Assembly (NCBI GenBank): GCA_040755715.1
Contig: JBFLXN010000168.1
Span: 1 to 5,825 of the forward strand
Length of the DNA: 5,825 bases
Origin: JBFLXN01 sp040755715 [NCBI: Candidatus Edwardsbacteria bacterium]
Lineage (GTDB): Bacteria > Edwardsbacteria > AC1 > JBFLXN01
Direction: 5' to 3'
The translations under genes were made by a program, and so were the position numbers. Below are positions 2,307-5,706 of the stretch, in pieces. The stretch's first letter is position 1; the number at the start of each line of letters is the position of its first letter. Below the pieces are notes generated by a model. It had not been told where the DNA came from, did no database searches, and worked only from the letters and a program-made list of their open reading frames with translations.

Positions 2307-3410
2307 ATGCGAAGCAAAAAAAACTTAGAAACTGAAGGACGCAGGAACTCAAGAACAAAAGCCACAGAATTACACAGAACAACATGGAAAATCTTAATGG
2401 TTTTTAAAGAAAAATCTGTGAAAATCTGTGGAAATCTGTGGCTAAATATCTTGGTTCTTTCGTTCTTCAGTGGTGTTTTTGCCAAAAACGAATACTTTTA
2501 TCGGATAAACCAGGAATGGCATAGTTCTGAGGTTTTCACTTACTGTGTCTTGCCAGGGCAAAAAGTTGAAATAGAAATTATAAATTTGCCTTCCGATAAA
2601 GAAATGTTGAAACAAATGAAAGATAGACGAGTGGCCTATCATAAAGAAAACCGAGCAACGGAAGAGATTTCGTTTTTGCCAATAGAATGGACTGCTCCTC
2701 AAGAACCAGGGCTCTATCCGTTAGGTGCTTTGGATTTTCTTCCACAAAATACTAATTTAACTAGTCGGCGCCTTTTAAACATAATTGTGATGATTCCGCC
2801 AGAGAAAGTAAAAAACGGAAGATTGAATGGCTTTCTCATAGGCCATTACCCAAAGAACAAAATGCCGCTTGGTTTTATTGAAGTAACCGAAGAAAACAAA
2901 GATACCTATATTTCAGAACACTTTCAATTGAAGGATTTTCTTTGCCCTCAAAATAGTGGATTTCCTCAATACCTCGTTTTGGATATGAAACTAGTGGAAA
3001 AATTGGAGATTCTCATCAAAAAACTCAATAGCGAAGGGTATCCTTGTAGTAAATTTGCTATATTGAGTGGTTATCGGACGCCTTATTATAATCGCTCAAG
3101 GCCAGGAAGGGCTCGTGAGAGCCGACATATGTATGGAGAGGCGGCCGATATCTTTGTTGATGACCTTCCCAAGGACGGAATGATGGATGACTTAAATGGA
3201 GATGGTCAAGTGAATATGAAGGACGCTGAAATCATTGCCAAGGCGACTAAGGAACTAAATGATTTAGGGATTTTACCTGGTGGCTACGCCGCTTATCCCG
3301 CCACCAAACAACACGGTCCATTTGTTCAAGTAGATACCCGAGGATATTCGGTTACCTGGAGGACAACAAGAAGAAAAACCTACTCTCATTTAAAAGGAAA
3401 AAGAAAATGA
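2307..3410 (+). CDS. Secreted M15/DUF882 (MepK-like) peptidoglycan peptidase homologue with EF-hand insert
   Basis: The 367-residue protein has an N-terminal export signal with hydrophobic core LWLNILVLSFF (44-54) and likely cleavage after VFA at 57-59. Next comes a beta-rich, probably Ig-like, region (about 60-180, including WTAPQEPGLYPLG), then an M15-type zinc peptidase domain (about 200-352). Family motifs are SGYRTPYYN (254-262), SRHMYGEAADIFV (272-284) with H274 and D281 as expected zinc ligands, and GPFVQVDTRG (337-346). Relatives such as E. coli MepK have FVH at the last motif; here the His is Q341, so a zinc ligand may be missing. Between the last two motifs lies a dockerin/EF-hand-type loop, D295-N297-D299-G300-D306, likely binding calcium. 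Known relatives cut peptidoglycan cross-links or D-Ala-D-Ala. With the 2307 start the signal is about 59 residues; a start at 2397 (M31) would give a normal 29-residue signal. Much of residues 9-55 is encoded by a hairpin repeat. Its stop overlaps the next ATG. Confidence 0.85.
   Translation: MRSKKNLETEGRRNSRTKATELHRTTWKILMVFKEKSVKICGNLWLNILVLSFFSGVFAKNEYFYRINQEWHSSEVFTYCVLPGQKVEIEIINLPSDKEMLKQMKDRRVAYHKENRATEEISFLPIEWTAPQEPGLYPLGALDFLPQNTNLTSRRLLNIIVMIPPEKVKNGRLNGFLIGHYPKNKMPLGFIEVTEENKDTYISEHFQLKDFLCPQNSGFPQYLVLDMKLVEKLEILIKKLNSEGYPCSKFAILSGYRTPYYNRSRPGRARESRHMYGEAADIFVDDLPKDGMMDDLNGDGQVNMKDAEIIAKATKELNDLGILPGGYAAYPATKQHGPFVQVDTRGYSVTWRTTRRKTYSHLKGKRK
2332..2470. repeat. Phased-box hairpin repeat, copy 1 (CACAGA type), inside the peptidase signal region
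   Basis: The core arms are 2361-2379 and 2424-2442, matching at 16 of 19 positions as inverted repeats. Boxes on the left arm start at 2363, 2373 and 2383 (CACAGA, CACAGA, CATGGA), exactly 10 bases apart. The right arm carries AATCTGTG three times, ending at 2420, 2430 and 2440, also with period 10. The inverted match continues outward to 2332 on the left and 2470 on the right: over the 36 left-arm bases 2332-2367, 27 match with one gap. The outer ends are CTGAAG and CTTCAG. The element lies wholly inside the peptidase reading frame, without a stop, and encodes part of its export signal. Confidence 0.75.
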
Positions 3411-4129
3411 AAGAAGAAAAAAATAAAATTAGTATTTTCTTTCTTTTCTTTTCCTGTTTAATTTTAGTCTTTATCGGTGTCAGTTTTTACCGTTTTTCCG
3501 AAAAGAAAAATCACTTAAGGAAGGAAATAGAGAAGAAGACTTTAATGATTGATTCATTATCTTTAGTCAATAGACTTCTAAAAATAGAAAATGAGGCATT
3601 AAAGACAGACCAGTTCTATTTGGTTGTCAATTCCCGTAACGGTCGGTTTTATCTGAAAAAGCGTGACAAAGTAGTCTATGAGGGCCCTTGTGGAGTCGGT
3701 CTCGGAAAAAAAAAATTTCCGGATGAGAAAGCCCAATTAAAAGAATGGGATTTTGAAACCCCTTTAGGAGAACGTATAGTAAAAGAAGTGATTAAAGACC
3801 CTTACTGGATTAGACCAAACTGGTTCTGGTTAGAACAGGGATTAACTGTCCCCCCCCCAGATTCAATGATTATTATCCCGGATTATCTTACTTTTGAAGA
3901 AGCCATCTTGGCTTATGAAGAACTGACTCCCGAAGAAAGACTATTGGTCAAAAATGTACCGGGCTATCTGGGTAAATACAAAATAGATTTGGGAAATGGC
4001 TATTTTGTTCATTTCGGTGAAATAAGTAAAGAGTTTAGAGTCAGTCATGGTTGTATCAGGGTTTCTAAAGAAGATCTGGAAATTCTTCAACAAGTATTAA
4101 AAAAAGGAAGTTCAGTTTTTATTTTTTAA
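3407..4129 (+). CDS. Membrane-anchored YkuD-family L,D-transpeptidase
   Basis: The 240-residue protein has a charged N-terminus, one transmembrane segment (about 9-30), a Lys/Glu-rich probable coiled coil (about 31-67) and a YkuD domain (about 69-240). The catalytic signature is H202 followed by SHGCIRVS (213-220), with C216 as the nucleophile. The domain begins with the typical FYLVVNSRNGRFYLKKRDKVVYEGPCGVGLG pattern (positions 70-100). YkuD enzymes form 3-3 peptide cross-links in peptidoglycan or attach proteins to it, outside the cytoplasmic membrane. C17 lies in the middle of the hydrophobic segment and lacks a lipobox, so this is a membrane anchor and not a lipoprotein. The start overlaps the peptidase stop as ATGA, with AAGGA at 3394-3398, 8 bases upstream. 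The gene carries two long homopolymers, A10 and C9. Which reaction this member performs cannot be told from sequence. Confidence 0.93.
   Translation: MKEEKNKISIFFLFFSCLILVFIGVSFYRFSEKKNHLRKEIEKKTLMIDSLSLVNRLLKIENEALKTDQFYLVVNSRNGRFYLKKRDKVVYEGPCGVGLGKKKFPDEKAQLKEWDFETPLGERIVKEVIKDPYWIRPNWFWLEQGLTVPPPDSMIIIPDYLTFEEAILAYEELTPEERLLVKNVPGYLGKYKIDLGNGYFVHFGEISKEFRVSHGCIRVSKEDLEILQQVLKKGSSVFIF
3706..3715 (+). repeat. A10 homopolymer inside the L,D-transpeptidase gene
   Basis: Ten consecutive A bases encode the end of G100 and K101-K103. Gain of one A brings a TGA within a few codons; loss of one A reaches a TAA about eight codons later. Either slip would leave only the anchor, coiled coil and start of the YkuD domain, without the catalytic Cys. 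Confidence 0.8.
3850..3858 (+). repeat. C9 homopolymer inside the L,D-transpeptidase gene
   Basis: Nine consecutive C bases encode the end of V148 and P149-P151. Loss of one C leads to TGA a few codons on; gain of one C leads to TGA about 12 codons on. Both stops fall before the catalytic Cys at residue 216. In this copy the frame is intact. Confidence 0.8.
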
Positions 4130-4135
4130 ACCCCT

Positions 4136-4235
4136 AGGAAATTATACCACGGAAACACGGAAGGATGGAGACACGGAATAATTTTTAAGATTCTGTGCTT
4201 CCTAAATTCCGTGCTTCCGTGGTAAGGTTTTTCCT
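4136..4235. repeat. Phased-box hairpin repeat, copy 2 (CACGGA type), filling the gap before the mutase gene
   Basis: The core arms 4145-4162 and 4207-4224 match at 17 of 18 positions. Pairing continues inward to 4179 and 4190 (10 of 17 further matches), leaving a 10-base loop at 4180-4189. AGGAAA at 4136-4141 and TTTCCT at 4230-4235 form a probable outer stem, separated from the core by short bulges. Left-arm CACGGA boxes start at 4148, 4156 and 4172, and a degraded box (GATGGA) sits at 4164, so the period is 8. The right arm mirrors this, with its third box also degraded. It could act as a transcript hairpin or terminator-like barrier, but no convincing T-run follows directly. Confidence 0.85.
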
Positions 4236-4241
4236 CGACCA

Positions 4242-5630
4242 ATGGAAAGCATAGACCCCAAAATCTTCAAAGCTTATGATATTCGTGGAATCTTTCCAGG
4301 GGAACTCCAGGAAAAAATTGCCTATCTGGTGGGCAGAAGTTTTGTTGAGTACTTGAGAATGAATGATTCAGGGAGACAAATATTCAAGGTGGCCGTGGGT
4401 CAAGATATGCGTCTTTCTTCACCGGTGCTTTTCAAGAATCTGGCGGAAGGACTACAACAACAAGGTGCTACCGTGATAGATATTGGATTGGTGAGCACTG
4501 ATGCCTTATATTTTGCCGTAGGAAAACTTGGCTTTGACGGCGGCATTATGATTACTGCTTCACATAATCCCCCCGAATATAATGGCTTCAAGATGTGTCA
4601 AAAAGAAGCCATTCCCCTTTCAGCTGACGAGGGAATCTTTGAAATTCGCGATTTGGTGCTAAAAGATAATTTCTGCCAAAGAGATAGGGGCTCCTCTCAG
4701 GAATTTGATATCGCTTCCGCCTACACCGAACATCTTCTGTCTTTTATTAATCCTGATAAAATTAAGCCATTTAAAATTGTAGTAGATGCTGGAAATGGAA
4801 TGGCGGGGAAAATTGTGCCTTCTGTCTTTTCTCACCTTCCCTGTCAATTAGTGCCGATGTATTTTGAATTAGATGGCTCTTTTCCTCACCATATACCAAA
4901 TCCAATTGAACCTAAAAATGTAGCAGAGTTAAAAGAAAGAGTTCTGTTAGAAAAAGTTGATTTGGGTGTAGCTTTTGATGGCGATGCTGACCGAATGTTC
5001 TTAGTTGATGAGAACGCCACTTCCTTAGGAGGCGATATAGTTACAGCATTGATAGCCAAGCATCTTTTGAGTAGAGAAAATAAAGCCACGGTAGTCTACA
5101 ATCTCATTTGCTCAAGAATTGTGCCAGAGATTATTGAAAGATACCGTGGTAAATCCATCAAAAGTAGAGTGGGGCATGCCTTTATTAAACCTTTAATGCG
5201 CAAGCATAACGCCATCTTTGGTGGTGAGCATTCAGGACATTTCTATTTTCGTGGACACTGGTATGCTGATTCAGGAATGCTAGCCCTTTTGGTAGTTTTA
5301 GAACTTCTTTCCGAAGAAGAGACAAGTCTCTCTGAATTAGTGAAAGAGATTGACCGTTACTTTCGCTCAGGAGAAATCAATGTTCGTTTAGAAAACATAC
5401 CCGAGAAATTGAAAGAGTTAGAAACAAAATATGCCAAAGAGTCGGCTAAAGAAATCAGTCGGCTTGATGGTCTTACGGTAGAATTTGATGACTGGTGGTT
5501 TAATGCCCGTCCTTCTAATACCGAACCATTACTGCGGATTAACTTGGAGGCAAGAACGAAAGAATTATTAGAGGAAAAACAAAAAGAAGTCTTGGAGTTA
5601 ATCGGAAATGAAACCACGAATAAACACTAA
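4242..5630 (+). CDS. manB: Phosphomannomutase/phosphoglucomutase (alpha-D-phosphohexomutase)
   Basis: This enzyme interconverts hexose-6-phosphate and hexose-1-phosphate in the cytoplasm, supplying precursors for GDP-mannose or UDP-glucose and so for surface glycans. The 462 residues match the usual family length and contain all four domains. Signatures are KAYDIRG (10-16), the phosphoserine loop TASHNP (105-110) with S107, the metal loop DGDADR (246-251) with D246, D248 and D250, the sugar-specificity loop GGEHSGHFYF (327-336), and the phosphate-binding loop RPSNTEP (423-429). GEHSGH is the form seen in bifunctional PMM/PGM enzymes, so glucose and mannose phosphates are both plausible substrates. 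The conserved N-terminus fixes the start, yet no Shine-Dalgarno lies at normal spacing; TAAGG at 4223-4227 is 14 bases away. The last five residues (TTNKH) and the stop come from a hairpin repeat. A promoter of its own was not recognised. Confidence 0.93.
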   Translation: MESIDPKIFKAYDIRGIFPGELQEKIAYLVGRSFVEYLRMNDSGRQIFKVAVGQDMRLSSPVLFKNLAEGLQQQGATVIDIGLVSTDALYFAVGKLGFDGGIMITASHNPPEYNGFKMCQKEAIPLSADEGIFEIRDLVLKDNFCQRDRGSSQEFDIASAYTEHLLSFINPDKIKPFKIVVDAGNGMAGKIVPSVFSHLPCQLVPMYFELDGSFPHHIPNPIEPKNVAELKERVLLEKVDLGVAFDGDADRMFLVDENATSLGGDIVTALIAKHLLSRENKATVVYNLICSRIVPEIIERYRGKSIKSRVGHAFIKPLMRKHNAIFGGEHSGHFYFRGHWYADSGMLALLVVLELLSEEETSLSELVKEIDRYFRSGEINVRLENIPEKLKELETKYAKESAKEISRLDGLTVEFDDWWFNARPSNTEPLLRINLEARTKELLEEKQKEVLELIGNETTNKH

Positions 5631-5706
5631 TAAACACGAAATCCGTCTTAGACGGGCAAAGAACTTTGTTACAAAATAATTCGCGTAAATTTGTGTTAAT
5701 TCGTGG
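5614..5706. repeat. Phased-box hairpin repeat, copy 3 (CACGAA type), overlapping the 3' end of the mutase gene
   Basis: The arms 5614-5640 and 5680-5706 match at 22 of 27 positions. Left boxes start at 5615, 5625 and 5635 (CACGAA, CACTAA, CACGAA), exactly 10 bases apart. Read on the complementary strand, the right arm gives CACGAA, CACAAA and CGCGAA with the same period. The middle box departs from the consensus on both arms. The loop holds a nested 5-bp stem, CCGTC at 5643-5647 with GACGG at 5651-5655, then CAAAG/CTTTG at 5657-5668. The left arm includes the TAA that ends the mutase gene. Confidence 0.8.

Follow-up and report, generated by a model that had tools for sequence, protein, structure and literature searches.

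By analyzing a 5,825-nt stretch of DNA (hereafter the window) from a Candidatus Edwardsbacteria genome (JBFLXN01 sp040755715, assembly GCA_040755715.1, contig JBFLXN010000168.1), we found three imperfect hairpins, E1, E2 and E3, which on balance we read as lacking the gene but belonging to a bacterial mobile DNA family whose gene-bearing form carries a GxxExxY nuclease gene. Box class, architecture and location point to their membership in this family: each consists of inverted arms of tandem CRC-N-R-A boxes, a class shared with 32 out of 54 GxxExxY elements in the phylum UBP2, and each is located at a gene boundary, i.e. E1 at the start of an open reading frame (ORF), E2 between two ORFs and E3 over a stop codon. 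In relatives, the arms are associated with GxxExxY genes in several phyla and, among the three gene families tested, are specific to these. Relatives also have hairpins without the gene at an orthologous site, as well as a derivative with an internal deletion. The features of the three hairpins are as follows.

2360..2443, no strand assigned: hairpin E1, left arm 2360-2378, right arm 2425-2443, period 10 nt.
Boxes of E1: CACAGA at 2363 and 2373; TCTGTG at 2425 and 2435.
Third box of E1: TCTGTG at 2415, opposite a degenerate CATGGA at 2383.
2332..2470, no strand assigned: outer complementary sequence of E1, about 2332-2356 folding with 2445-2470, spelled differently from E1.
4145..4224, no strand assigned: hairpin E2, left arm 4145-4179, right arm 4190-4224, boxes at multiples of 8 nt.
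Boxes of E2: CACGGA at 4148, 4156 and 4172; TCTGTG at 4192, TCCGTG at 4208 and 4216.
Position of E2: between the stop of the L,D-transpeptidase gene and the start of the phosphomannomutase gene.
5614..5706, no strand assigned: hairpin E3, left arm 5614-5640, right arm 5680-5706, period 10 nt.
Boxes of E3: CACGAA at 5615, CACTAA at 5625, CACGAA at 5635; TTCGCG at 5680, TTTGTG at 5690, TTCGTG at 5700.
Left arm of E3: holds the stop codon of the ORF at 4242-5630.

The loops measure 46 nt in E1, 10 nt in E2 and 39 nt in E3, and the outer sequence of E1 is possibly a second, nested arm pair. Chance is excluded as the source of the hairpins: when the window was shuffled 1000 times under a second-order Markov model, relaxed boxes gave a single hairpin with at least two boxes per arm and strict boxes gave none, as against five relaxed and three strict pattern matches in the window itself, which correspond to the three hairpins. 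All three hairpins reported in the first-pass annotation thus stand, and chance similarity, which it had named as a possible refutation, fails as an explanation; its account of the architecture, on the other hand, does not hold in detail. Instead of three or four boxes per arm there are at most three, some of them degenerate, and the spacing described as fixed is 10 nt in E1 and E3 and 8 or 16 nt in E2. Each copy mostly has its own spelling, as stated, but not always the same one, the exceptions being at 2383, 4192, 5625, 5680 and 5690. When arms were aligned to one another, the scores were 15, 19 and 17 within E1, E2 and E3, respectively, and 5-11 in the 12 comparisons between elements, apart from a single score of 15 (E1 right against E3 right).

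A lead to the gene partner was that repeats of this sort lie close to genes named GxxExxY, and this was subsequently tested. One box pattern was found near background in seven out of eight genomes of relatives and was frequent in G007, a metagenome-assembled genome (MAG) titled UBP2 (G and L denote genomes and loci throughout), with 22 matches versus 5 for the reversed pattern, or 50 versus 11 for a wider pattern. The same genome had eight matches to TIGR04256, the GxxExxY family, and three box arms within 30 nt of them. Such matches were present in all 10 UBP2 genomes searched, 67 in total. We read 61 loci (56 from UBP2 and five from Zixibacteria), 59 of them with both flanks; the UBP2 sample of 54 comprises the loci with enough flank among the 56 read from the 67 matches, fragments included. 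Across the 59 loci, the upstream flank scored 17.0 on average against the inverted downstream flank of the same gene and 10.6 against those of other loci. With a score of at least 14 taken as the threshold for matching arms, 49 of the 54 UBP2 genes had matching inverted arms; the corresponding figure was 14% for swapped partners, 7.5% for 1500 random windows and, in G016, 7.6% for 1332 open frames with a length of 95-200 aa. The window's own box class occurred on at least one side of 44 of the 54 genes, and upstream as well as inverted downstream of the 32 mentioned above; it was found on both sides of none of 21 Y1_Tnp genes, none of 30 four-helix-bundle genes and one of 2000 random windows. 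Arm spellings vary among elements and include CACGAAG, CACGGATT, CACAGAG, CACCAAG, CGCAGAT and ACAGGATT.

Outside UBP2, clear arms were found in two of the five Zixibacteria loci (L099 and L102), and one 10-nt box pattern was matched in 60 out of 132 Zixibacteria genomes, where the counts, judged by eye and not summed, were near those of the reversed-pattern control. The GxxExxY gene was detected in just two of the 44 Chloroflexota genomes searched, and arms were identified in all four Chloroflexota loci (scores 59, 24, 50 and 23, with 200-nt flanks). In one of these, L384, each arm is about 100 nt long and combines two box types, CACAGAGAA followed by GACGAGAGA, in equal order in both arms. 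Five out of eight plasmid records were taken for arm scoring, with clear arms in those from Bacteroides finegoldii (24) and Bernardetia (23). Two GxxExxY loci, both with arms (29 and 26), were found in IMG/VR when five aligned proteins served as query; a first scan with a single GxxExxY protein had returned no locus, and phage records gave no match for one GxxExxY protein.

GxxExxY proteins, classified as TIGR04256 and PDDEXK_3 (PF13366), are described in these entries by nuclease superfamily or motif, with no role given. Five out of five matched PDDEXK_3 with E-values of 3e-37 or better, and residues D62, E72, K74 and Q86 were invariant in 16 aligned proteins, a pattern expected of an active PD-(D/E)XK nuclease. 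No solved structure matched the GxxExxY profile up to an E-value of 1. A structure of one GxxExxY protein predicted with no relatives had a mean pLDDT (predicted local distance difference test) of 39 and was not used.

Published accounts describe REP/REPIN sequences as small hairpins with two arms that are present in many copies, for the most part between genes, and have a linked gene family (PMC3116915, PMC2817692, PMC3733652), and give as their tag GTAG (or CGTC) at one end of the repeat and as their partner a Y1 transposase (PMC3733652). All of the former properties recur in the GxxExxY elements, which differ by their tandem boxes and their PD-(D/E)XK gene. That the hairpins are repeats of this type moved by a REP-associated tyrosine transposase (RAYT), i.e. 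a Y1 tyrosine transposase, would accord with their size, two arms and short loop as well as with the presence of RAYT-like Y1_Tnp genes in eight of the 10 UBP2 genomes, but is very improbable. Out of 26 Y1_Tnp matches, 22 loci were taken and 21 scored; the window box class was present on either side of only one and on both sides of none, and the link to a transposase of the REP/TnpA(REP) type suggested in the first-pass annotation was thereby not recovered. Furthermore, GTAG is absent from the three window hairpins, CGTC occurs just inside the loop of E3, and no Y1_Tnp match was obtained in G007 despite its many box arms. The flanks of the Y1_Tnp genes (L321-L345) instead contain GC-rich, REP-like palindromes, which constitute a separate system, and a RAYT link in the UBP2 genomes was rejected.

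A second lead was that TIGR02436 genes, encoding four-helix-bundle proteins, might have box arms as well, and this was likewise tested. These genes were found in all 10 UBP2 genomes, and in the set analyzed (L347-L376, the best 30 of 123 matches) 25 out of 30 loci were bracketed by inverted arms scoring at least 14. The presence of box arms on both TIGR02436 and GxxExxY genes suggests a shared element design. Intervening sequences (IVS) with an S23/four-helix-bundle ORF, e.g. that in the 23S ribosomal RNA (rRNA) of Coxiella, are called a selfish element, sit in 23S rRNA and are excised from the RNA by RNase III, according to the published account (PMC4990558). As described there, they resemble GxxExxY elements in having terminal inverted repeats around a single small ORF and differ in that this ORF is not a nuclease, tandem boxes being unmentioned in the passages on them (PMC4990558). 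Moreover, the window hairpins neighbor protein-coding genes, not 23S rRNA, and their loops are too short for a four-helix-bundle ORF. Miniature inverted-repeat transposable elements (MITEs) provide another comparison, as gene-less inverted-repeat copies of a gene-bearing element, and an internal-deletion derivative was seen in the relatives; for the window hairpins the likeness is through arm resemblance alone. Unlike in MITEs, the GxxExxY partner is not a known transposase, and target duplication was seen once, inconsistently. No description of the GxxExxY box-arm family was found in the open literature by its name, its Pfam name or 12 box strings, subscription papers being mostly uncovered by this search, and the published passages found to mention GxxExxY did not mention repeats with it.

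Empty sites were identified in related genomes for the elements at L105, L119, L129, L152 and L195, where the neighboring sequence runs on to either side. In G018, two genes are separated by the L152 element, which by the reading of frames supplies the stop of the upstream one, whereas the flanking sequences adjoin in G016. At L105 the element separates two genes that overlap in G016 and supplies a new stop. L119 is an insertion of 507 nt relative to G017, G018 and G019, preceded by AAGATAA and followed by AAGATAG, while the three empty sites have AAGATAA once, i.e. a 7-nt target duplication with six matches. None of G017, G019, G022, G023 and G024 has the L129 element, and the upstream gene there has a stop of its own; in G016 the element is present but has lost about 260 nt from its interior with both arms still recognizable. 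L195 is missing in G018, G019, G022, G023 and G024, which have a short AT-rich spacer instead, and G017 has another insert. These comparisons indicate that arms and gene were inserted as one unit between genes in the relatives.

The location of the elements agrees with that of the window hairpins, and placement at gene boundaries, which the first-pass annotation proposed to test, was borne out for both. Among 52 elements, the left arm was near the stop of a co-directional gene in 38 and near a divergent start in four (10 without a call), while downstream there was a co-directional start in 34 and a convergent stop in 12 (six without a call). The bias of 38 to 4 suggests that orientation matters. 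In three closely read cases the upstream gene takes its stop codon from the element.

Placement between genes, together with tandem boxes that resemble operator arrays, could also be explained by static regulatory hairpins, i.e. terminators, mRNA stabilizers or arrays of regulator binding sites. We regard this as quite unlikely, given that presence and absence vary between genomes, that a nuclease gene lies between the arms, that spellings differ within one genome and that one copy is situated inside an ORF. The stems also lack an excess of G-T pairs: arm mismatches comprised 77 G-T and 83 A-C, and a role in DNA is therefore likelier than an RNA stem, which was rejected as a candidate. Rfam gave six matches on the window with E-values up to 5, none near the gathering score and no rRNA among them; two microRNA-hairpin families matched E2 far below threshold, and E2 was not retained as a microRNA.

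Gene-less forms were found at an orthologous site and in large numbers elsewhere. The L154 site is occupied in G016 by a GxxExxY gene with CACNAAG arms on either side, while the hairpins of G017, G018, G019, G023 and G024 belong to that class but lack a gene and are partly decayed. Other gene-less hairpins occur in G007, e.g. L200, L202, L210, L211, L219 and L222. In IMG/VR, the 8-nt class was represented by 92 three-box arms in 65 stretches, 77 of these arms with an inverted partner (median loop 22 nt). For the 10-nt class, 111 stretches were reported, and the 109 loci read from them had 144 arms, 54 of them partnered (median loop 50 nt); in these counts a single hairpin may contribute twice, through its left and its right arm, and several arms on one contig all had full weight. 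The window hairpins resemble these gene-less IMG/VR hairpins, and the expectation of more than three sites is supported by the many copies elsewhere. A hairpin scan of 740 kb of G016, with 71 phased inverted repeats versus 19 in the Markov control, included many GC-rich matches without CAC boxes and was too noisy to be used for counts. At another orthologous hairpin site (L244-L250 and L255) the interior varies between genomes and seems to be inverted in G023 relative to G018 and G024, a pattern suggestive of exchange or flipping of interiors between the arms. In L276, box arms 393 nt apart surround a different small ORF of about 130 aa, and passengers other than GxxExxY may exist.

Another alternative is that hairpin and gene form two layers, with hairpins spreading in some other way and the GxxExxY gene, as a secondary passenger, homing into their loops via arm homology. 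The L154 site, with a gene-less hairpin in five genomes and a gene in one, is compatible with this, as are the non-orthologous GxxExxY genes at the same site and the 236 gene-free arms in viral-labelled contigs. We nevertheless consider it somewhat doubtful, since at L105, L119, L129 and L152 arms and gene are present together against armless sites, since arm class correlates with protein relatedness, and since the deletion derivative shows how gene loss can begin.

The box spellings allow a further alternative to be weighed, namely that proposed by the first-pass annotation, in which each copy owes its own spelling to continual rewriting of its arms, by template switching or by conversion of one arm to the other. 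Homogeneity within hairpins, on which it was based, reappeared in the larger sample: 64% of the 144 three-box arms of the 10-nt class in IMG/VR had three identical spellings, as compared to 13% if boxes were drawn independently, and left-right agreement among the 54 arms with a partner was 0.78 within hairpins and 0.35 between them. Same-site orthologs, however, mostly speak against continual rewriting. In the four pairs with GxxExxY proteins at least 90% identical, the mean score was 24.0 against the ortholog and 16.0 against the own partner, arms were closer to their orthologs in three of the four, and left/right differences were inherited. At 66-79% protein identity, similarity within the element exceeded that between orthologs in seven out of 11 pairs (means 18.3 and 17.2), pairs that include two trios and are not independent. 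Within-element similarity is biased upward by the selection of arms by within-element match, and the comparison left out the same-site pairs L111/L112, L133/L140, L117/L124 and L100/L103. A box changed in both arms at L144/L146 (CGCTGATT versus CACGGATT), the clearest case for slow concerted change, and likewise at L128/L115. In contrast, L110 versus L120 and L134, as well as L105 versus L127, share a site with neighbors 74-97% identical, while their GxxExxY proteins are 40-46% identical and their arms differ, which looks like replacement or separate insertion rather than rewriting; L120 and L134, with GxxExxY proteins 56% identical, have a common spelling class. Loop sequence is shared among hairpins L259, L266, L269 and L273, and in part between L211 and L222, indicating that copying of a master hairpin, against which the first-pass annotation had argued, also occurs. 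In comparisons across sites, elements with more similar proteins also had more similar arms (rho 0.18, permutation p 0.002, 55 elements). Because of the ortholog arm scores, the apparent same-site replacements and this correlation, we infer that spelling is mainly a mark of the element lineage, carried along with the gene; a slow correction between arms may occur, while continual local correction as the origin of the spellings is unlikely.

Several observations weigh against the reading of the window hairpins as gene-less members of a GxxExxY nuclease family. There is no GxxExxY gene in the window, and five of the 54 UBP2 genes score below 14. The own downstream arm was the single best partner in just 20 of 59 loci, because box classes recur between loci. 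Zixibacteria loci L097, L100 and L103 lack box arms (L103 scores 16 without boxes), and arms were weak in the plasmid record from Treponema (13) and absent in that from Persicobacter (11). In the Gemmatirosa plasmid record L381 (score 31), box repeats (CGCAGAGGA) are found on both sides of the GxxExxY gene, but the upstream repeat is of the right-arm type and the downstream side is a whole hairpin, and the gene is therefore between hairpins, not inside one. The 236 arms in viral-labelled contigs (about 1.52 Mb) had no GxxExxY gene by the A1 profile; arms thus occur without the gene nearby. Single arms are also common, as the 740 kb of G016 listed 25 two-box arms of the 8-nt class and one gene-less partner within about 100 nt. 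The arms of TIGR02436 genes, often made of tandem boxes in other spellings (AGCGGAT, GTGAATT, TTTACAGT and AAAGCTC), imply that GxxExxY genes are not alone in having box arms. Lastly, no clear target duplication was found at L152 or L105. Many single CACNAAG arms with no partner within about 100 nt can be seen on contig 4 of G016, e.g. at 1922, 4943, 22635 and 626431, and are apparently decayed or split elements.

In the proposed mechanism, the element would consist of two inverted arms of short tandem boxes, with one GxxExxY-type PD-(D/E)XK nuclease gene between them in the gene-bearing form and a short loop in the gene-less form. The nuclease would drive movement by acting on the arms, either in the form of a DNA hairpin or as two paired sites, and host repair would complete this movement, and the location at gene boundaries could come from targeting or from the survival of harmless insertions. 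Each spelling would mark an element lineage whose arms travel with the gene. More tentatively, it is conceivable that these elements form a widespread class in which a PD-(D/E)XK nuclease, not a transposase or recombinase, recognizes the hairpin or cruciform of its own arms, moves the unit into stop/start junctions and leaves gene-less hairpins behind, with a private box code restricting the nuclease to its own arms.

The window itself has a GC content of 40.6% and five main genes, all on the plus strand.

Within the window, plus strand: Mg_chelatase-type ATPase, first of the five main ORFs, which we take to be YifB.
Within the window, plus strand: formyltransferase with a profile match to Formyl_trans_N, presumably PurN.
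2307..3410, plus strand: peptidase M15-like ORF, its N-terminal end read through hairpin E1.
3407..4129, plus strand: L,D-transpeptidase (YkuD) ORF, upstream of hairpin E2.
4242..5630, plus strand: phosphoglucomutase/phosphomannomutase ORF, its last residues and stop codon inside hairpin E3.

The nearest relatives found for the phosphomannomutase, in Zixibacteria MAGs, are 61% identical. In the M15-like ORF, translation from an internal ATG at 2397 would give a signal-peptide-like N-terminus with an n-region from the right arm of E1, both the start and the signal peptide being putative.

The window thus probably contains copies, devoid of the gene, of a type of mobile DNA that has been little described. 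For the GxxExxY proteins, whose library entries name no role, this provides a likely setting and a testable mechanism, and for the CAC-box hairpins found in many metagenomic contigs a likely source. Members supply stop codons to their neighbors and, in the window, probably coding sequence as well, while differences in spelling offer a readable record of element lineages. If the reading is true, a type of element with a nuclease partner would be added to those shaping gene boundaries.

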